Positions 3,116-20,772 of a DNA stretch of 21,377 nt are shown here, in pieces. Below the pieces are notes generated by a model that was given only the letters and a program-made list of their open reading frames with translations, had not been told where the DNA came from and ran no database searches. How positions within the stretch are numbered: position 1 is the first letter of the stretch; each line of letters begins with the position of its first letter. Both the position numbers and the translations under genes were made by a program. The stretch is from positions 1 through 21,377 of IMG/VR virus record IMGVR_UViG_3300031951_001404, one strand, 5' to 3'. Origin of the DNA: a virus.

Positions 3116-6100
3116 TTATATGCAGTTTATACAAGGTTCACAGTCAGCAAATTCTAGCTCAGGAGCAATGTTATAAATTCTATCAGCACAGAATGTAACT
3201 GTTGTTATAATATACGGAGAACCCTGGATAATTGTCCATAAATTACTAAATGGACAATCACTATTTATTGTATGGAATCCGAGTGTTTCTGATGTACTAC
3301 GTTCAAATAGTTCCCATTGGTTAGGATTTACACTCCAGGCAATTGCTAATTCATCTCCAGAATCAGTAGTAATGTAATATACATTTCTTCCGTTAAACTG
3401 TGTAGATTCAGCATATGCATCGTATTCTACTCCATTTATTGTAGCTCTTATACAATTACATTGTGGTGATGTTACCGTAAAGCAAAGGCCAGTATACCCT
3501 GCTGCGGTAATGGTTCTACCTACGTATCTTGATAATTCTGTTGATGTACTGATTAAGAATACATCAGGATTAGCACAATTAGTAAGTTGATAATAAGTAG
3601 CTAAACATTCGGGACAACCAGCATATGGATCACCCTGAATAGTTACATTCTCTAGTGGTACATTAACCCCATCATAAACACGAACTGTCCAACATACACC
3701 AGGATATTCTTGAAGATTTACAACTTGATCAACATATGCAGAAAAATCAAGTAGTGTATAAAGTACATTATCTTCATTTTGACAGTTTATGAATGTAAAT
3801 ATCTGTGGAGAACATTCTCCACAATCAGCAAATGATTGTGACACAGAAACTGGTTGTGGAACATTTGCGGGAGATGATCCTGGAAAAACTTGCCAGCAAG
3901 TGTCTCCAGTTGTCGTTAATCTTACAACACCCCCAAGGTACTGATTAAGATTGCTATCCGTAGCGATTGTATTAAATTCATCATTACAATCTCTGAGGGT
4001 ATATGTTACAGAAGCTACAGGCAAACATTCTTGACATGTACCATATGGTACCCCATCAGGACTTAGTATTTCGAATGTTACATTACTATCTTGATTTAAT
4101 GAACATGCCCAGCAGACATCTGGATATTGAAGAACTTTAACTACTTGACCAACATATGCACTAAAATCCCTATCGGTATAAATATCTGGTAAATTATTTT
4201 CACATGTATCGGAAAGTCTATATGAAGGAACGTCAACCGGAGCACATTCAAGACAAGAAAAAAACATTGTTTGAAATGGTACAGCTTGTTGCCAATTAGC
4301 AACTACAGGACTTGCATTTTCTATTGGACCTACAAATTCTCCAAACCAACATGTACCGTCATCATATGGTTGTTTTGTAGTTTGCCAAACATTTCCATAA
4401 TTTTGAAATCTCAAAGAACAGTCGTCACTTGTATAAATAAATCTAGTTGGATCTGAACAATCAGTAAACTTATAATAATCAGGAGTTAAGCAACTTGGAC
4501 ATGTAAGGAAGTCTTCAAATACTTCAGCAGGTTTAATATCTTCTGGTAATAATGAAGCTAGTTCTTGATCTGTTGCAACTGCAACTGTGTAACAACCTGG
4601 CTGATAATAATATCCAGGCGATGGTGGATTTTTAAGTGTAATTACACGATTAGGATAATTAGCGTCTACAAATTCTGGAACATAGTATCTAAAATCATCT
4701 TCTGTAGTATAGATAGGAGGTTGTATACCCTGGCAATCTGTAAGTTTATATACACATAGTTTAGAAAGAACTGCATTTATACATTCACAATATCCTAAAC
4801 CATCTAATCCTGCAACACCAACACAACCTTCAGGACATCTAACCGGAACATAAGTACTTGCACCAAGACCTAATCTTATTTGGTTTGCAATACTATCTAT
4901 GGTATCAAAATCACCACCCCTATAAAAATAATAATTACCAGCTGGAGATATTGATGGGTAAGGTGGATAACCTTGTTGTAAACCATTTCCAACAAAACCA
5001 CTATACAAGTTTGCAATGTTTGCAATATCACCAACAGCGACAATAAAAATCTTCATGCCTTTTCCAGCAAGATTTTGTTTTGCGTCTTCTGCTAGAGTAT
5101 AAAAAATTGCATCATTATCAGTAGTATCATATATTATTGGGTTTAATCCAATATCTGTTAAATTACAAGCTGACTTTACATTATTAGTTCCATCTGTAAA
5201 TATCACCATTACATTTTCTGCATCTGGACGCAACAGTGATTTTTCATACATCAGTCTTGTACTAACACAAAATGCATCAACGTGATTAGTTGTGTTTGTT
5301 CCAGCGCATACTCCAATATTATTATCATCTAATACCGAACTATTGATTTCATTAATATCTGTTGTAAAATCTTGTACAACACATGCAAACTCTGCCCATT
5401 TAACAACTGCAATTTCAATACTGCCAATAACAAGTCTATCTGCAAGCGAAGCTGTTACTCTATTAATAAATGCTTTAAATAAAAGATTTTCATCGCCATC
5501 AATACTTCCAGATTGGTCAATAGAATATATTAAATTTGTTGGTCGTACATTTGCTGGGACAGCGCATACTTCATCAATTGAGTCATAAACATATGGTGGT
5601 TTACATATTGGACCAGAATAACTTGCGCTAATACAGTATTCTTGATTTCCAGAACCTAAAGAAACGTAACCTAAAATTTCACCCAGTCGACATTCTCTAC
5701 AGTTTGTATCTATATTAAAAGCAAGAGCTTCAGGGTTGTTCCATGTTGGTTGTAGTATTTCAGTCCATGTAAGTCCACCATCCACAGATTTTTGTATTGC
5801 ATTTGGCGAACTTGTTAGTGCAATCAAAATTGATTCATTGGCGGCAACAATATCAACACAATTACCAGGAACATTACTCATAAAAGTCCAGGCCAATCCT
5901 TTATTACTTGATTTATATAAATCACCCGTAGAATCTATAAAGAAAATAATATTGTTATCCCCAAATATCTGAAAGAATTTTGTTATAGTTGCATTAGTAT
6001 TATCTCCAACAGTAGCGGAAGGTAAGACTTCAACAGGTATATCAGTTAATGCATGATTAATTGTATATAACTTTCCTCTCCCTACTTGTCCTGGTTCACC

Positions 6101-6721
6101 AGCTGCAAATATTACTTGACCGATATCATTGCTTATAACACATCTTATAACTCCATATACATTACCATCTAATACAATTGAATCAGGAAAATCGGTGCCT
6201 TGATTATATGATCGTGCTAATATTTGATCAGCATTACTATTATCACCATTTCCAGCAATTGCTATGTATCCGCCAGCTTGAGATGAAAAATATGCTGACA
6301 TCAGTGTTATATTACTAAAGGATGCGCCGGGAAAACTAAATAAAGATGTTGTATCAACAGATGTAGTAAAGCTATTTCCGTTATCATATGATATATATAA
6401 TGTTGGACCTGTATTAGTTTTTAATCTTTTTCCAGCAGCAACGACCACATTATCCGAAGCATACATGATTTCTTTACCTGCTATATTTGAAGACGATACA
6501 AATGTAACAGCACCGTCCTGTGAAAAATACGGAGTGGTGGCTGCGTTAGCGCCATTCAATACAAGTAACTCATTAAAATAATACGGATTAGCACCTACAT
6601 CTGATGCCGATGTAGTAGAAACATTGGAAGAAACTTCAGTCCAAGTATCACCAAAATCATCAGAATAATATACAGAATTAGAAGATCTGTTTATAGCATA
6701 ACACCTTTCAATAAGTGGCAT
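3116..6721 (-). CDS. Modular adsorption protein: Asp-box repeats, VWA domain, Cys-rich repeats
   Basis: The product has 1201 aa in three parts. Residues 1-330 contain Asp-box-like motifs (SDDFGDTWTEV at 20-30, SYDNGNSF at 111-118, SSNKGLAWTF at 271-280, SVDGGLTWTEI at 312-322), typical of sialidase-type beta-propellers. Residues about 394-620 form a von Willebrand factor A domain with the metal-ion site DQSGS at 402-406, a Thr-rich segment at 475-479 and FTDG at 508-511. Residues about 657-1090 hold some six Cys-rich repeats of 65-90 aa, followed by a unique C-terminal 110 aa. VWA domains bind protein or glycan ligands through Mg2+, and Asp-box propellers often bind or cleave glycans, so a host-binding tail role is likely; no sialidase active site is evident. 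It follows the zinc-ribbon microgene (9-nt gap) and precedes the 304-aa repeat protein. Confidence 0.88.
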   Translation of the reverse strand: MPLIERCYAINRSSNSVYYSDDFGDTWTEVSSNVSTTSASDVGANPYYFNELLVLNGANAATTPYFSQDGAVTFVSSSNIAGKEIMYASDNVVVAAGKRLKTNTGPTLYISYDNGNSFTTSVDTTSLFSFPGASFSNITLMSAYFSSQAGGYIAIAGNGDNSNADQILARSYNQGTDFPDSIVLDGNVYGVIRCVISNDIGQVIFAAGEPGQVGRGKLYTINHALTDIPVEVLPSATVGDNTNATITKFFQIFGDNNIIFFIDSTGDLYKSSNKGLAWTFMSNVPGNCVDIVAANESILIALTSSPNAIQKSVDGGLTWTEILQPTWNNPEALAFNIDTNCRECRLGEILGYVSLGSGNQEYCISASYSGPICKPPYVYDSIDEVCAVPANVRPTNLIYSIDQSGSIDGDENLLFKAFINRVTASLADRLVIGSIEIAVVKWAEFACVVQDFTTDINEINSSVLDDNNIGVCAGTNTTNHVDAFCVSTRLMYEKSLLRPDAENVMVIFTDGTNNVKSACNLTDIGLNPIIYDTTDNDAIFYTLAEDAKQNLAGKGMKIFIVAVGDIANIANLYSGFVGNGLQQGYPPYPSISPAGNYYFYRGGDFDTIDSIANQIRLGLGASTYVPVRCPEGCVGVAGLDGLGYCECINAVLSKLCVYKLTDCQGIQPPIYTTEDDFRYYVPEFVDANYPNRVITLKNPPSPGYYYQPGCYTVAVATDQELASLLPEDIKPAEVFEDFLTCPSCLTPDYYKFTDCSDPTRFIYTSDDCSLRFQNYGNVWQTTKQPYDDGTCWFGEFVGPIENASPVVANWQQAVPFQTMFFSCLECAPVDVPSYRLSDTCENNLPDIYTDRDFSAYVGQVVKVLQYPDVCWACSLNQDSNVTFEILSPDGVPYGTCQECLPVASVTYTLRDCNDEFNTIATDSNLNQYLGGVVRLTTTGDTCWQVFPGSSPANVPQPVSVSQSFADCGECSPQIFTFINCQNEDNVLYTLLDFSAYVDQVVNLQEYPGVCWTVRVYDGVNVPLENVTIQGDPYAGCPECLATYYQLTNCANPDVFLISTSTELSRYVGRTITAAGYTGLCFTVTSPQCNCIRATINGVEYDAYAESTQFNGRNVYYITTDSGDELAIAWSVNPNQWELFERSTSETLGFHTINSDCPFSNLWTIIQGSPYIITTVTFCADRIYNIAPELEFADCEPCINCI
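3452..4753 (-). repeat. Six divergent Cys-rich protein repeats inside the 1201-aa gene
   Basis: Residues about 657-1090 of the 1201-aa protein contain units that begin Y-x-L/F-x-D/N-C, continue with an I/L-Y-T/S-x-x-D/E-hydrophobic-S-x-Y-V-G segment, then V-V-x-L and a YPGVCWTV-like strand, and end in C-x-E-C-L or similar. Starts are near residues 657, 749, 833, 906, 974 and 1043. The third and fifth copies are the most alike (DFSAYVGQVV, DFSAYVDQVV). The repeats are visible at protein level only; the DNA has diverged. Confidence 0.8.
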
Positions 6722-7561: not shown

Positions 7562-8905
7562 TTATGGTGCTGCTGTTGCACTAACAGGAGTACATTCATC
7601 GTAGCAAGTAAATTCTTCAAGTACAACACAAGCACTTCCTTGTGCAGCTTCAATCCAGTCATTTACAAAACCTTCAAAAATTGGATCGTCACCATCAGTG
7701 ATGATTTCAAGCAAGTACTGGTCATTGTCAAATGTACTAGTAGGATTGTTGAAACGTGGAACACTGTGCTGGATATAGTAACGAGTATAACCTGCAGCGC
7801 CATCCAATGTTCTATCAATAGCATTGGTTACATCATTTCCTTGAGTAATCTCACGGATACGGAGATCCATACCAGTGTAGAAGTAATTCTGAGAATACAT
7901 TTCTGACTGGATTACCTCACGGATAACGTTTTCACCATAGCCGCTACCTTGTACAGGTAAACAGATATCATTAACACAGAGACCTGTGAATGCACATGGA
8001 TCACCATTCAAGTCAGTTTCAGATGCATAGATCTTAACTGGTTCTACACGAGCAAGAATTGCATCGTTAGGATAGAATGTGCAATCTCCGAAACGAGTAT
8101 CAATATAGCCACCGTTGATGATCAAACCAGCCAAGGTATCTGCAGGTACTGCGTTTTCTGGCCAAGGCAACAAACCATTGAGGTATGGAGCAAGATCAGT
8201 CAATGAAGTAGATGCACCAGCAGGTACAGGTACACCATTGTCTACAGATGCAGCACTTGGAGCAAGTTGTTCCCAAGTAACACCATCATCGGTTGAATAA
8301 GTAATTTGAATATTCACAAAAGGTGAAATCAAAGGACTGTTCAAGAAATTGTTTGCCCAGTTAGCATATACAATCAAAGGGTTAACTGCTACAGGAGCAA
8401 TAGCATCTGCAGGGCAGCAACCAGTGTAAGCATCAGCAGTGTAATAAGTATTACGGCTGAGGGTACGAAGTACTGGTGAACCTTTAATATCCAAACGGAG
8501 ATAGTATGTTTCACCACAGAAGAACTGCTTGCTACAAGTAGTATCATCAAATGACGTATTGTTAGCACCAACAGTGATTTGAGCAGCTTGTGGATCACAA
8601 GGATCTACACGGTAGAATCTTGAGATATACTTAGGATTAATAATCTTAGATTTGTTAGATTCCTGGTAGCCACCATGAAATGGACCAATCTTGTCATTCT
8701 GATACAATGAACCAGCGGCCAAAACTAATGGACATGGGTCACCAGCAAATGTAGTTGGTTGAACTTCCCATGTTCTAGAATCAACAAATGCAAATTGACC
8801 AGTAGCAAGAATGTTACCGGCTGTACCAAGAGTACCACCACCTAGGGCAGTAAATCCGTCGGTACCAACGAATGCCTTTTGAAAGGCGCTATTAAAATAA
8901 CTCAT
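7562..8905 (-). CDS. Candidate major tail or other abundant virion protein (447 aa)
   Basis: The product has 447 aa. It opens with a short helix-like stretch (NSAFQKAF), then a Gly-rich segment (GGGTLGTAGN, residues 22-31) and FAFVDSRTWEV, a style I associate with tail-tube-like virion proteins. The remainder is acidic, beta-rich and holds scattered paired cysteines (for example GCC at 162-164, and CVND to 320). One Asp-box-like STDDGVTW occurs at 204-211. The position, just after the connector and ferritin genes and before the adsorption genes, fits a major tail or virion protein. Its leader shares a TAACCCTTT(T/A)AATTT segment with the capsid gene leader and a strong terminator follows, both consistent with high expression. 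Family membership is uncertain: tube, sheath or decoration remain open. Confidence 0.65.
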   Translation of the reverse strand: MSYFNSAFQKAFVGTDGFTALGGGTLGTAGNILATGQFAFVDSRTWEVQPTTFAGDPCPLVLAAGSLYQNDKIGPFHGGYQESNKSKIINPKYISRFYRVDPCDPQAAQITVGANNTSFDDTTCSKQFFCGETYYLRLDIKGSPVLRTLSRNTYYTADAYTGCCPADAIAPVAVNPLIVYANWANNFLNSPLISPFVNIQITYSTDDGVTWEQLAPSAASVDNGVPVPAGASTSLTDLAPYLNGLLPWPENAVPADTLAGLIINGGYIDTRFGDCTFYPNDAILARVEPVKIYASETDLNGDPCAFTGLCVNDICLPVQGSGYGENVIREVIQSEMYSQNYFYTGMDLRIREITQGNDVTNAIDRTLDGAAGYTRYYIQHSVPRFNNPTSTFDNDQYLLEIITDGDDPIFEGFVNDWIEAAQGSACVVLEEFTCYDECTPVSATAAP

Positions 8906-8979
8906 TTTTACAAAAAATTTAAAGGGTTACAAATAAATATATACTTAATATACAAAAAGACTATTAATCAACAAAATTT
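8906..8979 (-). promoter_or_regulatory. AT-rich leader and possible promoter for the 447-aa gene
   Basis: This 74-nt gap is the longest inside the 338-aa-to-447-aa gene run. It contains the minus-strand element AAGTATAT...ATTTGTAAC (8946-8926), also seen at 11438-11409, and a TAACCCTTTAAATTT segment (8929-8915) like that before the capsid gene. A Bacteroidota TTTG upstream box can be placed in CTTTTTG, but the spacing is not ideal. It is a candidate promoter or mRNA leader, not proven. Confidence 0.4.
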
Positions 8980-9588
8980 TTAGAGATAATCTTTCATCTC
9001 GTGATCCAACAGTCTCATTGCAGTTTTATCTTCTCCAAATGCTTTAAGCTGGTCTTTCCAGTTCTGCATTTTATTATGTTCTTCAACTTGCTCTTTAAGG
9101 AACTTCAATGCTAAATCATATAACATATGGTCTCCTTTCTTTAGGGCATCAGATGCAAGATCTTTGATCTGCATAGTAATAGTTATCTCGTGGTCAAATG
9201 ATACCTTGATAATTTCTGGTAATCCCGAAAAATTCTGATTAGGTGCATTTAACATAGGTGTTGCAGGCTGTACTCCCATAGACAACAAGTATGTTCTTGA
9301 CCAGTTAGCATGATCCATTTCTTCGCTAGAGTAATTCTTCCAAAGTTTAGCAGCATTAACATAACCAGAGTTATCTAGCCACATAGACATTGCAAGATAT
9401 ATTCTAGAAGAATACTCTTCTTGCTGTATTCTATAGTTTAAGTATTCAATACATTCTTCAGAAATCAAAGGATTATGATCTGTAGAAATAGCTGGCTGAA
9501 TACCAGATTTATATGATGGTCTACTAATGGTAGGTGCTGGTTCCGCAGATTTACGTGCCAGTAGATTTCTTGATGGTGTTTCGGCCAT
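8980..9588 (-). CDS. Ferritin (non-haem, ferroxidase-competent) encoded in the virion operon
   Basis: The product has 202 aa: about 40 extra N-terminal residues rich in Ser, Pro and basic residues, then a complete ferritin four-helix domain of about 160 aa. By alignment from memory with E. coli FtnA, the ferroxidase ligands are all present: E57 (QQEEYSS), E90 and H93 (EEMDH), E134 (DHEITI), Q167 and E170 (KEQVEEH). Such proteins oxidise Fe(II) with O2 or H2O2 and store ferric oxide inside a 24-subunit shell. The gene lies 4 nt after the connector gene and before the 447-aa virion gene, in the same transcript. Its role could be iron storage or peroxide defence in the infected cell, or a virion component carrying iron; the N-terminal extension might target it. 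Ferritin identity is firm, the role is inference. Confidence 0.93.
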   Translation of the reverse strand: MAETPSRNLLARKSAEPAPTISRPSYKSGIQPAISTDHNPLISEECIEYLNYRIQQEEYSSRIYLAMSMWLDNSGYVNAAKLWKNYSSEEMDHANWSRTYLLSMGVQPATPMLNAPNQNFSGLPEIIKVSFDHEITITMQIKDLASDALKKGDHMLYDLALKFLKEQVEEHNKMQNWKDQLKAFGEDKTAMRLLDHEMKDYL

Positions 9589-9592
9589 TATA

Positions 9593-10300
9593 TTATGTAT
9601 TTGATTCCGATGAATTATTGGCTATTGTATACTGGTTCATTGACTCAATATCTCCTGCTAGGATTTTTACAGCATCATCAATAAGTATCTCAGTAATGTT
9701 ATCTTGAAATTCACAGATAACATCAGCAGCCGATGTGGTTAATGTATAAGGATCTACACAGCCAGCCAATTGAATCTTAACGGGTTCTCTGTAGTACATT
9801 AGATGAGGATTGTCTATATCAAACTCGTTGTTAGTATAGATTCTAATCTTATCACCTACAATAGTGCAGAAGGTTTCTCCCCATTCAAAACTTGGTTTCT
9901 TTAAAGAATCCTGTAGCAAAATGGGAACGTTCTGTTCCTCAGCAATAAAGATGATTGCAAGATCAGATGGATCTTTACAACAGTCTTTCTTAGCATCTGC
10001 GCTAATTCTTTTAAACTGTAGATAGTCTGCAGGTAAGGAATTTGATTCTACGTATAAATGTTTCTTTACAACAGGAAATGGTATTTCCTTTAGAAGATTT
10101 TGTAAATCATCAATCTTTCTTGTAGTTTGCTCGTCACCTTGCCTTTCTACATTAAGACCAATAATCTGTCTTCTAACCCATTGAATCTGGGCTTTGTTAA
10201 ATGCCTCTACAATCTGCCAACATTCAATGTTGTCATAATCGTTACTAGCTAACTTATTAAGTCGCTGCTTAATCTTTAATTGTAGAGTAGTATTATTCAT
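9593..10300 (-). CDS. Head-tail connector / adaptor-like virion protein (235 aa)
   Basis: The product has 235 aa. The N-terminal 80 residues are helical with a WQIVEAFNKAQIQWVRRQ segment; the middle has LPADYLQFKRIS and SFEWGETF; then a beta-hairpin region (DKIRIYTN, MYYREPVKI), and a C-terminal helix starting with an acidic, hydrophobic stretch (ITEILIDDAVKILAGD). I recognise this pattern from neck or ring proteins of Bacteroidota phages including crAss-like ones. It would sit between portal and tail and close the filled head. Its ATG overlaps the stop of the 64-aa gene by one base (TAATG), and the ferritin follows after 4 nt, so it is translationally linked to both. The family call is by sequence style and gene order; a profile comparison has not been done. 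Confidence 0.65.
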   Translation of the reverse strand: MNNTTLQLKIKQRLNKLASNDYDNIECWQIVEAFNKAQIQWVRRQIIGLNVERQGDEQTTRKIDDLQNLLKEIPFPVVKKHLYVESNSLPADYLQFKRISADAKKDCCKDPSDLAIIFIAEEQNVPILLQDSLKKPSFEWGETFCTIVGDKIRIYTNNEFDIDNPHLMYYREPVKIQLAGCVDPYTLTTSAADVICEFQDNITEILIDDAVKILAGDIESMNQYTIANNSSESNT

Positions 10301-10494
10301 TATTTACGTCTGATATTTTTCCACATTGCTGCAGCTGCAATTCTTTTTCCTTTTTCTCCACCACCTGCTTTAGCAGCAACCTCGTCAAAGGTTTTACCCT
10401 TCTTACCAATGTCCTTACCGGCTGATGCTTTTTTTGCAACAGAAGACTTTTGTTTCTCTGATAATCCAGAGGATGGTTTCTTTTTAGCAGCCAT
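10300..10494 (-). CDS. Small basic Lys/Gly/Ala-rich protein (64 aa)
   Basis: The product has 64 aa, begins MAAKKKPSSGLSEKQKSS and ends EKGKRIAAAAMWKNIRRK, with a strongly basic composition. The C-terminal K-R-I-A-A-A-A-M-W-K-N helix resembles short proteins I recall from structural regions of aquatic phages. Its first codons (ATGGCTGCTAA) contain the stop of the upstream 55-aa gene, so translation may pass from one to the other. Possible roles include DNA binding inside the head or a minor virion part. Function unknown. Confidence 0.75.
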   Translation of the reverse strand: MAAKKKPSSGLSEKQKSSVAKKASAGKDIGKKGKTFDEVAAKAGGGEKGKRIAAAAMWKNIRRK

Positions 10495-10651
10495 AGCCTT
10501 TCTTAGTTGATCCGCCTTTTTTATAGCCAGCTTTAATCAAAGCATTTTTTAGTGCAGTACCTGCTGCACCACCTTTAGCCATTTTAGGTTTCTTACCTGC
10601 AGCTTTCATTGACATTGCAGTAGCTGCTTGTTGTTTTGAATTTTTTGCCAT
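10484..10651 (-). CDS. Small basic protein (55 aa) overlapping the 64-aa gene
   Basis: The frame runs from ATG at 10651 to TAA at 10484 and encodes 55 aa beginning MAKNSKQQAATAMSMKAAGK and ending KKGGSTKKGYGC. It is extremely Lys/Ala/Gly-rich. The last four codons overlap the start of the next gene by 11 nt. It fills what would otherwise be a 170-nt gap in a tightly packed operon, which supports it. The KKGGSTKKG tail resembles other Lys/Gly repeats in this cluster. Role unknown; nucleic-acid binding is plausible from charge alone. Confidence 0.7.
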   Translation of the reverse strand: MAKNSKQQAATAMSMKAAGKKPKMAKGGAAGTALKNALIKAGYKKGGSTKKGYGC

Positions 10652-10664
10652 TATAGTAATTTAT

Positions 10665-10913
10665 TTAACATTTCCATTTTCTTAAAGCCTTATTTATTCT
10701 ACTGTTTGGGTCTCTTGCTGTTTCTGCAGAAGTATTTTTAGCTTTGTGACCTTTCATTCTAGCACAGAATGACTTCTTTCTTGATCCACCTTCAGGTTGT
10801 GGTGCTTTAAGATTACCTCCTGTTGTTTTATTATAGGAGGCACGTCCTTTAGCATTAAGTCCGCCACTTTCTGACTTACCTTCCTTTCTTTGCCATGCAG
10901 GTGACTTAGCCAT
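10665..10913 (-). CDS. Small basic protein resembling a widespread phage family (DUF6321-like)
   Basis: The product has 82 aa, beginning MAKSPAWQRKEGK, continuing GGLNAKGRASYNKTTGGN and ending RDPNSRINKALRKWKC, with SFCARMKGHK near residues 48-57. I recognise this pattern from short proteins of many marine phages, and believe the family is catalogued as DUF6321; the number is from memory. Its start overlaps the stop of the preceding 55-aa gene by 8 nt (ATGGCTAA). The function is unknown in the family as far as I know; the conserved Trp, Arg and Cys and the charge suggest a nucleic-acid or virion-internal role. Confidence 0.8.
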   Translation of the reverse strand: MAKSPAWQRKEGKSESGGLNAKGRASYNKTTGGNLKAPQPEGGSRKKSFCARMKGHKAKNTSAETARDPNSRINKALRKWKC

Positions 10914-11073
10914 TTCTTTTCTTTTTTTCTTTAGCTTTAACTTTTCTTTCAGATTCTTTCAAAGCACTAGTAACTTTCTTACCAGAACCAGCATTCTCAC
11001 GGATATTATCCCATAGTCCTCTCTGACTATAAGATCCATCTTTCCGTTTAATCATTTCTTTCTTAGCAGCCAT
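10906..11073 (-). CDS. Small basic protein (55 aa), start at 11073
   Basis: The frame is open back to an ATG at 11151, but the likely start is 11073, giving MAAKKEMIKRKDGSYSQRG and a C-terminus of charged Lys/Glu helix ending KEKKKRNG. The choice rests on three points: the protein then begins MAAKK like the 64-aa protein; the 78 nt before it are occupied by the 44-aa gene in another frame; and the ATGGCTGCTAA overlap with that gene repeats the arrangement at 10484-10494. The GLWDNIREN segment is shared with short phage proteins that I recall. Function unknown. Confidence 0.7.
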   Translation of the reverse strand: MAAKKEMIKRKDGSYSQRGLWDNIRENAGSGKKVTSALKESERKVKAKEKKKRNG

Positions 11074-11197
11074 ACTTACATGTTTTAAGGGTTTTAACAA
11101 GCCCTCCGTTTTTAGCAGAAGGCTTGTTATTTTTTCCTTGAGGTTTACCATAAGAAACCATTTTCTTCTGTTCCTCCGGGTTAAGCAGCTTATTCAT
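11063..11197 (-). CDS. Microprotein (44 aa) ending in KYGC, overlapping the next gene
   Basis: The frame runs from ATG at 11197 to TAA at 11063. It begins MNKLLNPEEQKKMVSYGKPQ and ends TLKTCKYGC. Its ATG is one base beyond the TAA of the 69-aa gene, and its last codons overlap the following start by 11 nt. Tight spacing on both sides and the same Y-G-C ending as the 55-aa protein at 10484 support a real gene. A competing reading is an N-terminal extension of the 55-aa protein from 11151 in another frame; I prefer the 44-aa gene. Function unknown. Confidence 0.6.
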   Translation of the reverse strand: MNKLLNPEEQKKMVSYGKPQGKNNKPSAKNGGLVKTLKTCKYGC

Positions 11198-11198
11198 C

Positions 11199-11408
11199 TT
11201 ACTTCTTCTTACCCATTTTCTTCATACTAACCTTGCCACCGTAGGACATCTTGCCTCCCTTGCTCATTTTACCACCATACATTGCAGCAGGTGTTGCAGT
11301 AACATTAGGATTCAACTTAGGTTTAACGCCTTTACTACCAGGTGTAGTTTGAACAGTGGCTGGGGTATTTACTCCACCACTCATCATTTTCTTAGTCATT
11401 TTTTTCAT
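11199..11408 (-). CDS. Small Lys/Met/Gly-rich basic protein (69 aa), start at 11408
   Basis: The frame is open from an ATG at 11459, but that start lies inside the 338-aa gene and adds an atypical Asn/Ile-rich peptide. The likely start is 11408, giving 69 aa beginning MKKMTKKMMSGGVNTPA. The C-terminal half has GGKMSKGGKMSYGGKVSMKK, a short Gly-Gly-Lys-Met/Val-Ser repeat, and ends MGKKK. An AT-rich element with TTTGTAAC lies directly before the ATG. The composition suggests a flexible polycation, perhaps bound to DNA in the head. No family is recognised. Confidence 0.7.
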   Translation of the reverse strand: MKKMTKKMMSGGVNTPATVQTTPGSKGVKPKLNPNVTATPAAMYGGKMSKGGKMSYGGKVSMKKMGKKK

Positions 11409-11438
11409 GTTACAAATATTTATATTATTAATATACTT
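11409..11438 (-). promoter_or_regulatory. Possible promoter element before the small-gene cluster
   Basis: On the minus strand this reads AAGTATAT, then AT-only spacer, then ATATTTGTAAC immediately before the ATG at 11408. The same two end sequences occur before the 447-aa gene (8946-8926) with a shorter spacer. TATAAATATTTG is near the TAnnTTTG -7 type of Bacteroidota promoters, but the element abuts the start codon, which would leave almost no leader. Confidence 0.3.
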
Positions 11439-12453
11439 ATTGATTCCAATACTTCTCAACTTTTTTTGTCAAATTCACAAGAATTTCTTCATTCAAAGGA
11501 TTCTTGAGGTATTCAACAACTTCTGAAGGAGTTCTACCCATCATAGCACCAGAGGATACTTCATAGATAAATCCGTCAGCTTTAGTAGCAATTAACTTAT
11601 AGTAAGTAGCATCCTTAACTATAGATCTCAGTTTTAATGATTCCATGTCCTGATTAGCTGCATCCAAGAACATTTGTGCTGCTCTGTTTGCATTCTTCTC
11701 ACTTCCTTGACCATTAATGAATGTATCCATGTTATCATACAATACATCTGTTGGTGTAGACTTCTTGTATTGAACACTAGTTACATCAACTACCTTAGCA
11801 ATGTAAAGCAGTTTATTTGTATTCTTATCAAACAGCTTCTGCAACTCAGACAATGCTTTGTTGCGAATCTTCTTGCTTTCTGTTTTAGTAGACACAGTAT
11901 CTTCATACTTGTCTAGATAAAACTTCGGTGGCTTTTGTCTAGTTCTGGCTTCTTCATAGCTTTTTGCTATTATAGAAAATCCTCCAGCTTGAATAGCATA
12001 CAACTTAATTAAATCATATGGATCCTTTGCTGGCTCTAAAAACAATGGTTCATTACCGCAACGAAGTGTTATTTTACTCCAGAACTCATGATTATCAGGT
12101 CTTAGCAATTTAACCTTATTCCAAAATTCTGGATCTTCGGGATTAATAACATTTGCAGCAAGTTCTTTTTCAAGCTGACAAACTGTAGTTCTAATCTCTT
12201 TAACCTTAGCCTCACGTTGTTCTGGATCTGGAATTAACTTTACATCTGGTGCAAATTCATTCAATCCAGTAAGGTATCTGCTGATACCATTTAATTCAAC
12301 ACAAGCTAATTGTTCTTCATGATGTACACCATCATATAATGCTAATCCGTACTTCTCTAATCCCATGTTCTGTACATTACTATTAAAGTACGGTTTAATA
12401 GCAATAGGCCCTTTTTTAATTGCAGGGTTCTGTTCAATTAATGTAAAACTCAT
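11437..12453 (-). CDS. Conserved-looking virion-region protein, unknown function (338 aa)
   Basis: The product has 338 aa, starting MSFTLIEQNPAIKKGP. It is a soluble mixed alpha/beta protein without signal peptide or membrane segment. Charged helices dominate about 75-235 (DPEQREAKVKEIRTTVCQL; EEARTRQKPPKFYLDKYED), and the C-terminus has a short domain with YKLIATKADGFIYEVSSG and PSEVVEYLKNP. It follows the 68-aa gene across a terminator, and its leader carries AACCAACAAAAA directly before the ATG, shared with the scaffold gene. The location just after the capsid genes suggests a head-associated or head-completion protein. I do not recognise the family. Confidence 0.75.
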   Translation of the reverse strand: MSFTLIEQNPAIKKGPIAIKPYFNSNVQNMGLEKYGLALYDGVHHEEQLACVELNGISRYLTGLNEFAPDVKLIPDPEQREAKVKEIRTTVCQLEKELAANVINPEDPEFWNKVKLLRPDNHEFWSKITLRCGNEPLFLEPAKDPYDLIKLYAIQAGGFSIIAKSYEEARTRQKPPKFYLDKYEDTVSTKTESKKIRNKALSELQKLFDKNTNKLLYIAKVVDVTSVQYKKSTPTDVLYDNMDTFINGQGSEKNANRAAQMFLDAANQDMESLKLRSIVKDATYYKLIATKADGFIYEVSSGAMMGRTPSEVVEYLKNPLNEEILVNLTKKVEKYWNQ

Positions 12454-12795: not shown

Positions 12796-14418
12796 TTAGA
12801 ATGAACCTCCTGTAACAGGGTTTCTCATAACAATCTTCAACACCTTGGTTGGATCTTTAACCCAGATAGCAGGCATTGTTTGTGTCATGAATACACGGTA
12901 ACCATTGAACTGACCAGAAGACTGGAAGCCTTGGGTACGACCCATGTAGTCCATAGTACCGTTTTGATACCACCACTTCAATTGATTATCCCAAGACAAC
13001 TTCAACAAGAAGATGTTATCATTAGTATTATCAGTAATATCGAAGATGATGAAGCTATAAGATGACAATGGGAAACCATCAATGATTGGGTTTTCAATGT
13101 CATTTGTATGCAAGTTGTCAAATGCTGGGTTCAATACGAACTTAACATTTGCCAAGAATGGAATCACATATGATGTGAATGCAAATCCAAAGTTCAAGTC
13201 CATGCTCTGACCAGAAATTGCACCAATACCTGCATCAGATGCAGCTTGGATAACAAGACCTGAAGATACAGCCTCTCTACGGATTGCTTCATTTACCATT
13301 CTCATACCACCCATACCGGTTTGTACAATCAGTTGACGCTTAGGATCTGGACCCTTGAATTCAACCTTACCAGCATAGAAGTTGTAGATTTCAGAACGGA
13401 ACAAATCCAAGCTAAAGCCAGACTTGTTGTATACACGCTTGAATGAGTTATCAAGCTGCTTCCAGAGACCGACAGACAGACGGATATCATCTGGACCATC
13501 CTGACGTACTCTACCTCCTTGTCCCCACATCAAGTAGGTCTCAATGTCATTAGCAACTTTAGTCAAGTGTGCTGCTTCCATTGTAGTCAAGAAAGTACGA
13601 GATAATGAACCATTGTTCATTGCACGTTTAACATAATCCTTACCCATACGGCTAACCATGGTATCAAGGTTAGCTACAGCTGGATCGATGTTTTTGTCAA
13701 AGTTGCGCCAGATTTCAGTTACAGGTACAGTACCATCTGCATTCATACCACCCTTGATCATAAGATCAGCACGGCTAGAAATAGAGTAGTGTACGTGTGC
13801 TTCTGCACCACCTACAAAGTTGTAGAATTCACGGAAGCCAGTAGCTGTGATGATATCAGAGAATCTTTCTCCATATTCACCACGAGCAGAACCTTTACGG
13901 AAGATTTTGGTACCAGATACAAGATACTGATCAGCATCAATACCGTTACCAGTATCATTGTTTACGAGTTGTACAGTGTACAAGAAACCGTCACCGAGAG
14001 GAAGGATATCATCTGCAGTAACATACATTTCAAAACCATTGTACTTATCGTAAGTGATGATATCACCATGACCAAATTCTCTGCGTGACAATTTGATCTG
14101 GAAGGTAGTACCATCAAGACCTACAATGCCTGCAGCTTGTGAATCTACAATGTAAGGAAGATCCTGAACTACAGGAGTCTGCCACTTGTATTCACCACGT
14201 GCATTGTCTACATTAATTACGTTCTTACCACCAAAGGAAGACATCTGATAAAGCGGCATCTCAACCTTTTGTGCCATTGCCCAAAGGTCAACTGGTCCAA
14301 GGTCCATCGGCTCCGCATTCTTCAGCATGTTAACCAGGTGATATGAATCTACGTGCGAACTAGCCGCATAATTGGTATCTCGTAGAAATATACCATTGTT
14401 TAAAACTGGAGTTGCCAT
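12796..14418 (-). CDS. Major capsid protein (HK97-fold candidate, 540 aa)
   Basis: The product has 540 aa. It follows the scaffold-like gene by 33 nt and is followed by a strong terminator, the canonical place of the major capsid gene. The sequence is beta-rich with a helical central part (about residues 250-330) and a late segment containing FGFAFTSYVIPFLANVKFV and NPAFDN, the kind of hydrophobic strand plus NPxxDN that I associate with capsid proteins of Bacteroidota phages. There is no signal peptide or membrane segment. Codons are regular and G+C slightly higher than in the tail genes, as expected for an abundant product. It should form the icosahedral shell around the packaged DNA. The HK97 fold is inferred from gene order; a structure prediction would settle it. 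Confidence 0.85.
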   Translation of the reverse strand: MATPVLNNGIFLRDTNYAASSHVDSYHLVNMLKNAEPMDLGPVDLWAMAQKVEMPLYQMSSFGGKNVINVDNARGEYKWQTPVVQDLPYIVDSQAAGIVGLDGTTFQIKLSRREFGHGDIITYDKYNGFEMYVTADDILPLGDGFLYTVQLVNNDTGNGIDADQYLVSGTKIFRKGSARGEYGERFSDIITATGFREFYNFVGGAEAHVHYSISSRADLMIKGGMNADGTVPVTEIWRNFDKNIDPAVANLDTMVSRMGKDYVKRAMNNGSLSRTFLTTMEAAHLTKVANDIETYLMWGQGGRVRQDGPDDIRLSVGLWKQLDNSFKRVYNKSGFSLDLFRSEIYNFYAGKVEFKGPDPKRQLIVQTGMGGMRMVNEAIRREAVSSGLVIQAASDAGIGAISGQSMDLNFGFAFTSYVIPFLANVKFVLNPAFDNLHTNDIENPIIDGFPLSSYSFIIFDITDNTNDNIFLLKLSWDNQLKWWYQNGTMDYMGRTQGFQSSGQFNGYRVFMTQTMPAIWVKDPTKVLKIVMRNPVTGGSF

Positions 14419-15804: not shown

Positions 15805-18552
15805 TTATTTCTTCTTCTTCTCGTTGCTCTTTTTATCATACTTATTCTTATTCTCCCTAGCAATTTGCAGTTGTGTACTGGCTATATCTTTTTGTGTATT
15901 TAATTTCTGCTGCTCAATGTTCATTTTGTCTCTATTCTCAGCCATTCTATTAATCTCTTTTTCTTTCTGGAGAGTAATATTCTCATTCTCAATACCCATC
16001 TTATTAATCTGTGCAAGAGAATCCATGTAATCTGATTGTTGATTCTGATTAATATCAACGGTAGCACCAAAGCCAGCAGATCTGATTCTAGCTTCTTGCA
16101 GTCTAGCTTGTCTATTAAGATCATTCTGTTCTGCTTCAAACTCTCTCTTAAGTCTTGCTTCTTCAGCTTGAGACTGCAATTGTTGTTCTTGCATCTGTTG
16201 CTGTTGTTGCATTTCTTCCTGACGCATCTGCTGTTGTTTCTTCTCAGTCTGCTTAAGTACCTGGTCTACATCAGGTAATGAATCAGCCATCATGAGTTTA
16301 CCTAAGTCATAGATAGAAGCACCTGTAGTATTGTTATTAATAGCCAATTGCTTAAGCTGTTCTACTATAGCTCTATGATTTGCCTTGGTTGTACAGAATA
16401 TATTTAGATCTCTAAGTAGTAAGTCTGTACCGTTTATTTCAAAGTTCTTACGTTCCTCTGTAGTTGTAAGGTATTGCAATCTTACAGATGGATTGGTAGA
16501 CTGGTAGAATTGTGCTAAGTCAGTACGCATCTGATGTACTCTAGGCATCAGATAATCCGAATGCTGCATAAAGTAAACCTCAGTTTGTGCGTAAGATGCA
16601 TTAACAGATTGCTCAACTCCAGTAGCTGTTTGCTGAGATATCTGTTGCCCCATACGTTGGGGTGTAATACCAATGACTTCAAATGCCTGATTCTTAAAGT
16701 ATCCAGCAAGATTAATCCTTGACATCAAACGGTTTGTTTGTTCAAGGTCAAGTTTTTGATAATGCTGGAATGATAAAGCATTCTCTGTATTAGTAATAGA
16801 TGTATCCAGAGGTAACATCTGGAAGTTCTTCATTGCTACGTATGCCTTAGCAAGATTGTTCTTTCCCCAGTCTTCTCCCAAACTATGTCTCGGTAAAGCA
16901 TTCTGATCTAATAAGATTACTGTTCCAAGTTCATCTACAAGGATATCGGCAATCTGGTTATTTACGATATTATAACCAATCTGGAATGGCTTCATTAAGT
17001 CTACAAGAGATGTAGATCTAGTATTTCTATCTGAGAATACAGATCCCTCTACAGGTAGCTTACAACCATACATAGTATCATCACCCTTAAATTGGAATTT
17101 AAGAGGTCCAATGTTATTGTTATTAATTCCTAAATAGATAGGATTGATACCACCGGGGTTATTAGTTCCCCAGTATGTGGGATGGTTTGGTCCAATCTTA
17201 ACACCACCCCATACCTCATTAATCCAGATCCAGTCAATGTGTTCTCCAAATAAAAGATTCTGCTTACTCTTGTTCTTAAAGAGGTCAGTATTATAAAGAG
17301 GCTTATCTGTTACTGAGTATGACTCATCAACAATATCATTTGTTACCTCTCCAAAATCATCAATCTTGGTAAGGTGACCTACTTTTCTTTGTGACTTCCA
17401 GTAAACTGTAGTTACTCTAAGGAGGTTAGTCATACCCATATCAAAGTAATCCTCGCTATCTGCTAGGATCCAGTTTACAATATCTCCTCCACGAAGTGTA
17501 TTATCCCACATAGAGGTATACTGACGATACCCCAATGACGGCATATTGGTATTCCAATCATGTGATTTAGTACCATCATAGTAAGTACCATCATTCTGAT
17601 ATCCTTGTAATGGGTAACCAGCAGAACGTACAGGGTAGATTTGTTCTAATGTTTCCATCTGTTCCTCAGTCATCAACCATCCATAACGGTCAATAACATC
17701 AGCAACAGTCATCATATCATACTTTCCAACCCATTGACCCTGAGATATATATCTTACATCAGGTGATTTATGGTAGAATGTAAGTACTGGATTCCAAAGT
17801 TCAATATCATAATCATCATCAAGCATTCTAAAATGCCAGAATTCCCTATCAGTAATGAGCATATCTCTGAATGCTCTTTCTTCTAGTTCATCCATTTTGA
17901 ATCTTTCTACATCAACTGCATGCTGATGAGCAGCCCATTGTTCTGATAATGATCTGTAACTCTTGTCAAAAAATGCCTGAATCTCAGGAAGCTGTCTGAT
18001 TGCTTCTGGTGATGTAGCCTGCTGATATTCTTCTGATTCAATGTCTACACCATCTTCAGCCAGGCGCATCATCAATTCACGTTCAGCATCATATACTAAT
18101 GCCTGTTCTACTTCTTGTCTTTTTAATTCAAGGAGTTCGTTATATGAAATATCATCTACTGCTCTATAGGATACAGCACTTGATCTTTTGGCAAATTCAG
18201 CAACTAACGTATTAATTACATTAGGGATAATCGGATAGAATTTAAGTTCTAATGCAGATGCGTCTTCCTTGGTAAGGACTTCCATAAGATCTGCATACTC
18301 ATTATCCTCCTCAATTATATAGTCACCCTTGTCTATAATACCTTTGGCAAGCTTGTAGTTCTTCATTAAACGTCTTGCATTTCTGCGTACATGCTGTAAT
18401 CCCTTCCATTCAAGCCAGTCTAAGTTCCAGGCAGTCCATTCATTATCCTTTTTTGACCTAGGAATAAACTGGATAGGCTGGTTTAGAGTACCCATTTTAT
18501 TGTACTCTACTTTGGCACCAGCCTTCATTTGCATCGCATTATATATCTGCAT
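15805..18552 (-). CDS. Portal protein (915 aa) with long Gln-rich coiled-coil tail
   Basis: The product has 915 aa and lies 3 nt after the large terminase stop, as expected for a portal. The N-terminal 330 residues include FYPIIPNVINTLVAEFAKR (about 104-122) and repeated acidic helices; the central part is Trp/Tyr-rich (WIWINEVWGGVKIG; YWGTNNPGG), and a segment near residues 615-640 (LAGYFKNQAFEVIGITPQR, then MGQQIS) resembles portal stem regions. From about residue 768 to the end, a Gln/Glu/Lys-rich coiled coil ends in KKSNEKKKK. It should form the 12-subunit DNA channel at one capsid vertex. It is long for portals but in line with large Bacteroidota phage portals. The identity rests on order, length and sequence style; the tail may contact scaffold or packaged DNA. 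Confidence 0.83.
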   Translation of the reverse strand: MQIYNAMQMKAGAKVEYNKMGTLNQPIQFIPRSKKDNEWTAWNLDWLEWKGLQHVRRNARRLMKNYKLAKGIIDKGDYIIEEDNEYADLMEVLTKEDASALELKFYPIIPNVINTLVAEFAKRSSAVSYRAVDDISYNELLELKRQEVEQALVYDAERELMMRLAEDGVDIESEEYQQATSPEAIRQLPEIQAFFDKSYRSLSEQWAAHQHAVDVERFKMDELEERAFRDMLITDREFWHFRMLDDDYDIELWNPVLTFYHKSPDVRYISQGQWVGKYDMMTVADVIDRYGWLMTEEQMETLEQIYPVRSAGYPLQGYQNDGTYYDGTKSHDWNTNMPSLGYRQYTSMWDNTLRGGDIVNWILADSEDYFDMGMTNLLRVTTVYWKSQRKVGHLTKIDDFGEVTNDIVDESYSVTDKPLYNTDLFKNKSKQNLLFGEHIDWIWINEVWGGVKIGPNHPTYWGTNNPGGINPIYLGINNNNIGPLKFQFKGDDTMYGCKLPVEGSVFSDRNTRSTSLVDLMKPFQIGYNIVNNQIADILVDELGTVILLDQNALPRHSLGEDWGKNNLAKAYVAMKNFQMLPLDTSITNTENALSFQHYQKLDLEQTNRLMSRINLAGYFKNQAFEVIGITPQRMGQQISQQTATGVEQSVNASYAQTEVYFMQHSDYLMPRVHQMRTDLAQFYQSTNPSVRLQYLTTTEERKNFEINGTDLLLRDLNIFCTTKANHRAIVEQLKQLAINNNTTGASIYDLGKLMMADSLPDVDQVLKQTEKKQQQMRQEEMQQQQQMQEQQLQSQAEEARLKREFEAEQNDLNRQARLQEARIRSAGFGATVDINQNQQSDYMDSLAQINKMGIENENITLQKEKEINRMAENRDKMNIEQQKLNTQKDIASTQLQIARENKNKYDKKSNEKKKK

Positions 18553-18555
18553 GTC

Positions 18556-20772
18556 TTATCTTAAATTTCTAAACGGTAATTTTGGTAGTCTCATTCCTGA
18601 AACTGAACCAGATGCCCCTCCAATATGACGGAACGGACTTCTATTCAATTTACTGAAATTATTATTATTATCCAATTTTTTGCCACCAGATTCCTCATAT
18701 CTTTTCTTATAACCCCTATTAGCTTGTTGAACCTTGGCAAAAGCTACTAATGCAGCAAAGCTAACCAGTCTATCGACGTTTACACCATCTCTATATGCCA
18801 TCATCTCCTTGAGTAGCATAGGATCTGGTATTCTTTCTATTCCATATACTGTTTTATATACCTTTCCACTTTCGTCTACATCAGTATATAATTCCTCTTT
18901 TACAAATTCAATGGCATAACTAAGCATATGACTCTTGAACAATGTCCCTGTATTTCTCCAGCCATACTCCTGGAAAACGTTAGCATTTGCACCAATATCT
19001 TTGAGGAATAGTATCTGTGACCTAGGTACGAGGAATCTCTGCTTCTTTCTATAGATCATATGGTTAATAAACTGGCTAATGTTATTTTCTACAATAGTCC
19101 AGGCATTATACCATTCAATTATAAGTTCTAATCTTTCATGAGTTTTATTAATATCATCAAATCTACCACACCAAGCAGCTACTAATTTATCTTGTTCTAT
19201 GTATGTTTCAACAACATCTCCTTTATTTTTAGTTACCTCAACAGCTGTCTTGTAAACATAGATGGAACATAGTGATTCTGAGGTAGTTGTCTTACCTTCC
19301 CCTACTGGATCGACAGAAGCATAATACATTCCAAATTCAGGTTCCTTTACTGGTCTTTCCCATACTACAATAACACCTGTTTTATCCTCAGTATCTTTAG
19401 TAATTGGAAATTCCCGAATTGGTAACTTATTGCTTTCAGTAGATTGTATAGCACCTCTCTCATCTCTGTATAAGTCAAGATGTTCGTAGGCATACATTTT
19501 ATCTTCAATTCGTCTAGTTTGTGCGGTAACAAGATGGGCAGGAAATACAGATACAGTCCTAAAATCAAATGCTTCTTTGATATTTCTAGGGTGCTGAGAT
19601 ATACGTAACTGATAGTCTTGAGGATCTAGTTCTCTTTTCCAGGTAGCAAACTGCTCATCTAATGCTTTTAGTGCATCAGCAACCTGTGAATTACCATATC
19701 TATCAATATAAGGTGGCATTGACCATTGCTCAGGTATGAATAATCCTGACCTTCCTATGGTGTTTAGTTCATCTATAAGATCTGTTTCTACACTATAGAT
19801 GTCATTTGCATCTGGTCTAGTAATCATCTTCTTCAATGGTTCGCATTGACTAAGGTCACCGACAGAACCAGCAGCTATAAACATACCTGTGGTAGTCATA
19901 CCAGATTTCATAGCAGGTCTAATGAATTCGAAGGTAGTATCCATCTTAGGTGCAATACCTGCTTCCTCGTGAAAAAAGAATTTACATGGACCACCGACAC
20001 CATTTGTAGGATCCTTTTCAAAAGACATACCCTGTATAACTCCTTTTAATCCTACCTCAGATTTCCTTTTCTGTGTCCCCACATATGTATCAATCTCAAT
20101 CTTCTGTTGCCAAAAGAGTGTCTTATGGGGATTCATAGGTCTATACCAAGCAGTATGCTTATTCAGAAATGCCTCGTATTCATTAAGAAACTTCCAGGTA
20201 CCCTTCTCATTGATATAATCTTTAAGACTGGCCCCCATCTTTAGGGTAACCCCTTCCTCAAACCATACCTGATTTATAAACTTACCAGCATGAAAATAGG
20301 AACTAGCTATCTGACGTTTCTTTAATATGGCTGCATGCTTATGACTTAATTCAGCAAGCATTTCATATAATGCCATATGATATTGTGCATCACGTATATC
20401 AGCAAAACCAAACTTCTGTATCTCCTTGTTAAAGATAGGCAAGAAGTTTAGCCACATATAGTAGTCACGAGATAGATACCATTTCTTATCTCCATTTATA
20501 AAGAATACTCCTTTCCTACACTTCTGTTTTTCAGTATCCCAGAATGCACGGAAGTCTTTAGTTCCCTCAGGATGTACACAGTAGAATCCTTGTGTATTAA
20601 AAAGCTTAGCTAATTCATTAAACTTTAGACTAGTCTCATCAAATTCATATTCTCCAGGAACCTTGAACATGGTAAGTAGATAGTCTCTAAACTCCATTTG
20701 AGAGTTAAAGGTTATATCCGTCCATACTCCGTTCTCATATACAGGAATATTTGTGTAGAATTCTTGCTGCAT
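18556..20772 (-). CDS. terL: Terminase large subunit (TerL, 738 aa)
   Basis: The packaging motor ATPase and nuclease. The ATPase half shows a Walker A-like KKRQIASSYFHAGK (151-164), a Walker B FFFHEE (265-270) and a likely coupling motif AAGSVGD (300-306). The C-terminal nuclease domain of RNase H fold shows SVDPVGEG (486-493, catalytic D488), VENN (561-564, E562) and DRLVSF (667-672, D667). The order and spacing fit phage TerL. The P-loop lacks the usual G-K-S/T; many Bacteroidota phage terminases have a similar K-x-R-x-x-x-S-Y form. The gene starts 1 nt after the 173-aa gene stop and ends 3 nt before the portal start, so the three form one operon. It is about 150-200 aa longer than typical TerL, mainly through a longer N-terminal region. 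Confidence 0.95.
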   Translation of the reverse strand: MQQEFYTNIPVYENGVWTDITFNSQMEFRDYLLTMFKVPGEYEFDETSLKFNELAKLFNTQGFYCVHPEGTKDFRAFWDTEKQKCRKGVFFINGDKKWYLSRDYYMWLNFLPIFNKEIQKFGFADIRDAQYHMALYEMLAELSHKHAAILKKRQIASSYFHAGKFINQVWFEEGVTLKMGASLKDYINEKGTWKFLNEYEAFLNKHTAWYRPMNPHKTLFWQQKIEIDTYVGTQKRKSEVGLKGVIQGMSFEKDPTNGVGGPCKFFFHEEAGIAPKMDTTFEFIRPAMKSGMTTTGMFIAAGSVGDLSQCEPLKKMITRPDANDIYSVETDLIDELNTIGRSGLFIPEQWSMPPYIDRYGNSQVADALKALDEQFATWKRELDPQDYQLRISQHPRNIKEAFDFRTVSVFPAHLVTAQTRRIEDKMYAYEHLDLYRDERGAIQSTESNKLPIREFPITKDTEDKTGVIVVWERPVKEPEFGMYYASVDPVGEGKTTTSESLCSIYVYKTAVEVTKNKGDVVETYIEQDKLVAAWCGRFDDINKTHERLELIIEWYNAWTIVENNISQFINHMIYRKKQRFLVPRSQILFLKDIGANANVFQEYGWRNTGTLFKSHMLSYAIEFVKEELYTDVDESGKVYKTVYGIERIPDPMLLKEMMAYRDGVNVDRLVSFAALVAFAKVQQANRGYKKRYEESGGKKLDNNNNFSKLNRSPFRHIGGASGSVSGMRLPKLPFRNLR

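Follow-up and report, generated by a model that had tools for sequence, protein, structure and literature searches.

The gene at positions 8980–9588 of the virus record analysed here (21,377 bases in all, referred to below as the window, with its main genes all on the minus strand) is read as occupying, with a ferritin, a position that crass-like phages reserve within their virion module for an iron cage, and as encoding a tagged cage that is probably associated with the virion and would protect the phage DNA. Judged from sequence comparisons, this reading has a probability slightly better than even, roughly 55%. Its main components are a position beside a tail-barrel ring gene that holds either a ferritin or a Dps-like protein, the exchange of these two cages at that position, and a short N-terminal peptide that stays in place while the cage behind it changes.

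By its capsid, portal, gp33 and ring genes, and by their order, the window genome is a crass-like phage. On the minus strand the module proceeds from the terminase large subunit (738 aa, 18556–20772; phrog_6681, 3.8e-58) to the portal protein (915 aa, 15805–18552; phrog_6547, 7.8e-93, and crAss001 gp20, 1.2e-30), the major capsid protein (540 aa, 12796–14418; PF23898 Crass_capsid, 1.3e-31, 110 bits against a cut-off of 27), a homologue of crAss001 gp33, itself annotated as dsDNA-binding (338 aa, 11437–12453; profile match 5.5e-6), several small basic ORFs, the gene at 9593–10300, the ferritin gene, and the gene at 7562–8905, the succession capsid-gp33-ring being that of crassviruses. The small ORFs (55–86 aa, 10300–11459, minus strand, between the gp33-like gene and the ring gene) are strongly basic, some have homologues in many related loci, and they are possibly DNA-binding. 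The gene at 9593–10300 had been taken for a connector in a preliminary description of this DNA; it is indeed a structural neighbour, but its product (235 aa, minus strand) is identified by tblastn and profile matches as a crassvirus tail-barrel ring protein. The tblastn matches include a 'ring protein' of csAssE-Sib (2e-11) and structural proteins of Cellulophaga phages, while the ring profile retrieved phi4:1 gp62 (1.4e-20), a homologue whose annotation derives from MS/MS proteomics, and matched crAss001 R4/R5 weakly; the tail barrel of crAss001 is built of rings (PMC10172136). On the other side of the ferritin, the conserved gene at 7562–8905 (447 aa, minus strand), a neighbour kept in most loci, was described as a major tail protein, a label that found no support in any detectable relation to a known tail protein. 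It corresponds by position only to the structural gp61 of phi4:1 and to crAss001 gp36 (AUX, auxiliary capsid protein). Domain, family and profile searches returned no sequence relatives for it, and its assignment as a tail protein or AUX homologue was set aside for want of a sequence match, its AF2 model being poor (pLDDT 59).

The ferritin itself is a 202-aa protein read on the minus strand from an ATG at 9588 to a stop codon at 8982–8980, and the ring gene upstream ends at 9593, leaving the 4-nt gap originally reported. An N-terminal tag and linker (approximately residues 1–40) precede an FtnA-like ferritin domain (residues 41–198) that matches Pfam Ferritin PF00210 with an E-value of 7.6e-22 (78.2 bits, curated cut-off 24.5) and aligns without gaps to its best solved relative, the ferritin 3qz3 (3.8e-23), so that its description as a ferritin within a phage virion-morphogenesis module stands. 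Catalytic positions were mapped through a gapless alignment to the E. coli-type ferritin with an offset of 40. The six ferroxidase-centre residues of sites A and B are all in place, as first noticed, at E57, E90, H93, E134, Q167 and E170, which are E17, E50, H53, E94, Q127 and E130 in E. coli naming; also intact are E89, E166 and E169, the site-C residues E49, E126 and E129, and Y64, equivalent to Y24. None of 55 distinct phage homologues has lost a ferroxidase residue, and all ten positions are invariant among them. Compared with its nearest relative, L002, the ferritin domain shows a dN of 0.077 and a dS of 1.40 and is thus under purifying selection. The full-length ferritin alignment is consistent with a predicted 24-subunit iron-storing shell. 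With 66.8 bits against the 178 required, the protein misses the NCBIfam FtnA equivalog cut-off (NF007638), and by that standard it is FtnA-like and no FtnA orthologue. Like FtnA-type non-heme ferritins (PF00210; PDB 3qz3, 1eum) it possesses a full-length domain with sites A, B and C intact, but it differs from them in the roughly 40 residues of tag and linker at its N-terminus and in its location within a phage virion module. The Met that serves as haem ligand in bacterioferritin (E-x-x-H region) is not conserved, residue 91 being Met in the window and Leu, Phe or Ala in homologues.

Two ferritin scans returned 29 and 80 loci, and 54 distinct ferritin C-terminal sequences were present among the loci then collected. 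The phage homologues form one family, 48–85% identical across widely divergent phages, and the gene order of the window recurs in dozens of IMG/VR contigs, as a proposed search for synteny in metagenomic phages has now established, so that the arrangement is not a matter of chance. In the window's own lineage the ferritin lies immediately after the ring gene. Distant crass-like lineages carry it elsewhere, in or near the structural module and often adjoining a DUF5856 gene, for example some 2–3 kb upstream of the terminase gene (L155, L165, L187) or between the portal and a g_14452-like gene (L015, L169–L173, L195, L208). Among 50,697 phage records no close relative was found in isolates, matches of 26–28% occurring in unannotated records, and a single close relative came from a scan of genome contigs, whose motif patterns may pass over ordinary bacterial ferritins. 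That relative, a phage-type ferritin (L132:1090-1689, 61% identity), is on a contig of 5.5 kb assigned to a Tissierellales MAG, probably a misbinned phage contig.

A simple conservation of ferritin in this operon is ruled out by a capsid-based scan, which recovered relatives possessing the ring and downstream genes without a ferritin, 28 of them with another protein of 141–174 aa in the slot and three with an empty slot. Absence of the gene from phages sharing the operon had been named as evidence against a role for the ferritin; ferritin is in fact missing from most such relatives, but it is mostly replaced by a Dps-like cage with a related tag, and the iron cage therefore persists in the slot. 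Occupancy was quantified in a sample not chosen for the cage, assembled by two scans, one with the ring profile and one with the ring protein from a phage whose slot is empty, which together yielded 113 distinct ring loci (5 unresolved, 108 resolved). The resolved slots held a Dps-like protein (DUF5856) in 79 cases, a ferritin in 16, both in one, nothing in 12, and any other protein in none, so that all occupied slots (96/96) contain a member of the ferritin superfamily. On this gene-content evidence the slot beside the tail-barrel ring gene is dedicated to a ferritin or Dps-like iron cage.

The slot's DUF5856 protein appears, from sequence and from a structural model, to be Dps-like. Six slot proteins tested matched DUF5856 with E-values of 3e-11 to 2e-21 (44.6–77.4 bits, cut-off 34.6), and the protein also falls in PHROG_858. 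Over the half that bears the ligands, its profile matched HP-NAP (4.6e-5) and numerous Dps chains, and the Dps-type metal ligands H72, H84, D99 and E103 are invariant in 28/28 distinct slot sequences. An AF2 model of the L038 protein has a confident helical core preceded by a disordered segment (residues 1–47), and the top Foldseek matches of this model are nearly all Dps proteins, with modest statistics (best E-value 2.5e-3, probability 1.00, TM approximately 0.4–0.65). DUF5856, a 'family of unknown function' with hundreds of phage records, may thus have a Dps-like function, to which the slot data point. The family is also that of Dps / DUF5856 / PHROG_858 proteins in T4-like and Ackermannviridae phages, where the known DUF5856 genes, unlike the slot occupants, are located elsewhere and untagged, and from which the window gene differs in being a ferritin. 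Genes of this family in the latter phages (L364:14948-15301; L363:5052-5405; L113:4974-5357) are labelled 'starvation-inducible transcriptional regulator' (PHROGs) or hypothetical, and look Dps-like.

Comparison of DNA identity along the slot has shown that ferritin and Dps-like domains replace each other as a cassette. In nine related ferritin/Dps pairs the ring DNA is 72–86% identical and the first 12 codons of the cage gene 69–96% identical (at least 83% in eight of nine), after which identity falls to 54–71%, the level of a forced alignment, only to recover to 75–97% in the spacer that follows the cage gene. In L013 and L038 the initial 31 bases of the cage gene are identical before the two diverge. 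Mapped by parsimony onto a ring and capsid tree of 72 loci, which is built from neighbour genes that may themselves recombine and from loci partly obtained through ferritin, the slot state changes about 14 times where shuffled labels give 24 on average, indicating that exchange is frequent but non-random. In one group of loci, L019–L022, of which L019 and L022 were read, the ferritin has the tag and the Dps-like gene behind it does not, the arrangement to be expected if a ferritin had been inserted between tag and Dps. On the ferritin tree, ring-context ferritins and those from other contexts are interleaved, so that gain or loss of the tag goes with position.

The tag occupies codons 1–12 (9553–9588, minus strand) and is common to ferritin and Dps-like slot occupants. 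The window ferritin begins MAETPSRNLLAR and the Dps-like protein of the relative L038 begins MAEAPSRNLLKR, the N-terminal peptides also being written as MAETPSRNLLARKSAEP and MAEAPSRNLLKRDSEP, respectively. A strict motif written from the first set of loci occurs in 56/68 ring-adjacent cage genes, in 0/14 cage genes elsewhere and in 3.8% of other N-termini, and in a larger combined set in 89/139, 0/16 and a background of 4.2%, respectively, with p-values that take loci as independent and leave relatedness uncorrected. It is weaker among more distant Dps-like proteins (54/93). A looser form, hydrophobic-x-Arg with Pro, Asn or Asp often following, was broadened after inspection of the data and covers 122/139, but it is unsuitable as a test, for which the strict pattern alone serves. 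No tag is present on the ferritins that other crass-like lineages carry at other positions. The tag has thus been shown, at the level of encoded N-termini, to follow the position after the ring gene independently of the fold attached to it. Three near-complete phage genomes, one with a ferritin, one with the Dps-like protein and one with an empty slot, contain no other N-terminus with the strict motif, and the notion of a general packaging signal was accordingly rejected; small basic ORFs starting MLKRKDG resemble the tag in its superficial core only. At the Leu, Lys and Arg positions of the core, synonymous codon changes leave the residues constant; selection therefore probably acts on the peptide, and a conserved signal in the DNA or at the start site is an unlikely source of the motif. 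Adjacent Dps-like and ferritin genes at L195:4297-5241 both begin MALDINK, with related starts in L169–L173; this crass-like lineage (L195, L169–L173, L015) is other than that of the window, and its common start is perhaps a second, independent lineage-specific tag.

What such a slot might be for is suggested by the interchange itself. Known ferritin and Dps relatives have different subunit numbers and the same chemistry, and since two cages of unlike subunit number and common chemistry substitute for each other, the job they share would be iron oxidation and storage near phage DNA. Tagged subunits would assemble into cages late in infection, and these would oxidise and store Fe(II), limiting Fenton damage to the DNA. 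The tag may, with less certainty, dock the cage to a constant partner, be it the ring, the portal or the capsid interior, and docked cages would travel with the particle in the way that encapsulins load ferritin-like cargo by means of a short peptide. The fuller proposal, that functional ferritin or Dps cages are part of the virion, held by the tag to a constant component, the particle being an iron-oxidising, DNA-protecting compartment with a swappable cage type, is put forward tentatively, at a little under even odds. Since a tail barrel would hardly let a 24-subunit cage through intact, protection of the particle is the likelier role for a ferritin borne by the virion, with delivery conceivable only in the form of unfolded chains. 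Both crAss001 and phi4:1 are without the cage and, as noted, some slots are empty, hence the cage is not essential to crass-like particles.

The sole experimental hint of virion-borne cages, an indirect one, comes from the Vi01-like phage Sajous1, whose gp217, designated 'Ferritin' by Phyre2, was detected with 10 spectra among the proteins of CsCl-purified virions, in a study whose authors warn of low counts and contaminants (PMC10892097). This protein belongs to DUF5856 (profile match 1.3e-28), the same family as the Dps-like proteins of the slot, but it differs from them in coming from an unrelated phage family, in its locus beside a primase and gp214, in its lack of a tag and in its low spectral count. 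Particles of crAss001 contain cargo proteins within capsid and tail (PMC10172136), which provides a crassvirus precedent for phage-encoded cargo of the kind proposed for the cage, although there the cargo consists of ejection and RNA polymerase proteins and the homologous position has neither a ferritin nor a Dps-like gene.

The alternative that survives best, possible but clearly less probable than a virion-associated cage, is a late, purely intracellular one, absorbing iron from the dismantled host or shielding replicating DNA and staying behind at lysis, with the tag acting as a DNA-binding or localisation tail comparable to the basic tails of some Dps proteins. Retention of the catalytic residues would be expected here as well, and the N-terminal extensions are weakly basic, with a median net charge of +2 to +3. 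Phage genes of the Dps type are often found outside structural modules, and phage Dps and Mn-catalase have been proposed to guard the host cell from oxidative damage (PMC8008677). Against this, the gene is fixed between two conserved virion-module genes across many genomes, and the hydrophobic-Leu-Lys-Arg core of the tag, together with the near-neutral charge of many long extensions, better fits protein docking. Far less probable is the 'Ferrojan horse' idea, in which ferritin iron on the virion would be displayed to exploit the iron-uptake receptors of the host. A ferritin with an intact ferroxidase centre does adjoin a tail gene, yet the cage shows no connection with any fibre or receptor-binding gene, and what siderophore receptors recognise is iron in chelated form, not the core of a ferritin. 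The idea has been raised for the DUF5856 protein in Vi01-like virions, but the same study found TonB- and FeoB-deficient hosts to be infected by these phages about as well as the wild type (PMC10892097). Still less credence is given to the cage as a structural part of the particle whose iron chemistry is irrelevant, an idea that draws on the fixed site beside the ring gene and the common tag but fits poorly with the full invariance of ten ferritin and four Dps catalytic positions, and with the mutual substitution of two folds that share their chemistry and little of their sequence. Least probable of all is a recently captured host ferritin, an ordinary metabolic gene sitting in the operon by chance, since the commonness of ferritin in bacteria (14/14 control genomes) and the frequent exchange of slot content are outweighed by the divergent phage family to which the homologues belong, the single close relative that a motif-based scan, able to overlook ordinary bacterial ferritins, found in genome contigs, and the retention of slot and tag.

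With regard to known systems, phage Dps and catalase genes have been reported before, and the accessible text of that report treats the Dps and Mn-catalase of Gratiaviridae and other gut phages, likewise phage-encoded members of the ferritin superfamily proposed to counter oxidative stress, as cell-acting enzymes, describing no virion-module slot, tag or exchange (PMC8008677). Ferritin-like cargo in HK97-fold shells is familiar from encapsulins, where the pairing of such a shell with a ferritin-like protein bearing a short peptide resembles, by analogy, the tagged cage; the present case differs in involving a DNA-packaging phage, a full ferritin domain and an N-terminal tag, whose part in loading is putative. 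A literature search, outside which lay most subscription journals and every bioRxiv preprint, found nothing on ferritin with Crassvirales, Dps with crAss, or DUF5856, and within those bounds the virion-module slot, its interchangeable ferritin and Dps-like cages and their common tag are apparently new. Whether phages equip their particles with iron chemistry deliberately is an unsettled question, for which the usual argument is the iron that histidines bind in tail fibres. A virion-module position reserved for an iron-oxidising cage, whose tag is kept while the cage changes, would render that question testable, namely in the form of whether the tag brings the cage into the particle. If it does, a swappable cage behind a fixed docking tag would constitute a cargo system of modular build, resembling in its design the pairing of encapsulin with ferritin.

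The remaining observations concern the surroundings of the slot. The spacer between the ferritin and the downstream gene (8906–8979, minus strand) contains a promoter-like element, TTTG (8975–8972) and TATATTA (8952–8946) separated by 19 nt, and an alignment of spacers across loci found this TTTG-N19-TATATTA arrangement kept in nearly all related loci, whether their slot holds a ferritin, a Dps-like protein or nothing. A sigma-70 scan of the spacer gave sites no commoner than in shuffled sequence and none on the minus strand there; the conserved element may nonetheless represent a promoter belonging to the gene at 7562–8905. Further along, at 3116–6721 on the minus strand, lies a gene for a very large protein (1201 aa) with a region resembling the von Willebrand A-type, of which L002 has two tandem copies (L002:8179-15129), suggesting rapid duplication in that part of the module. 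Two relatives have their capsid gene broken into two ORFs (L007:3968-5613 and L030:3480-4943), for which an intron-like insert, a frameshift or an assembly error may be responsible.
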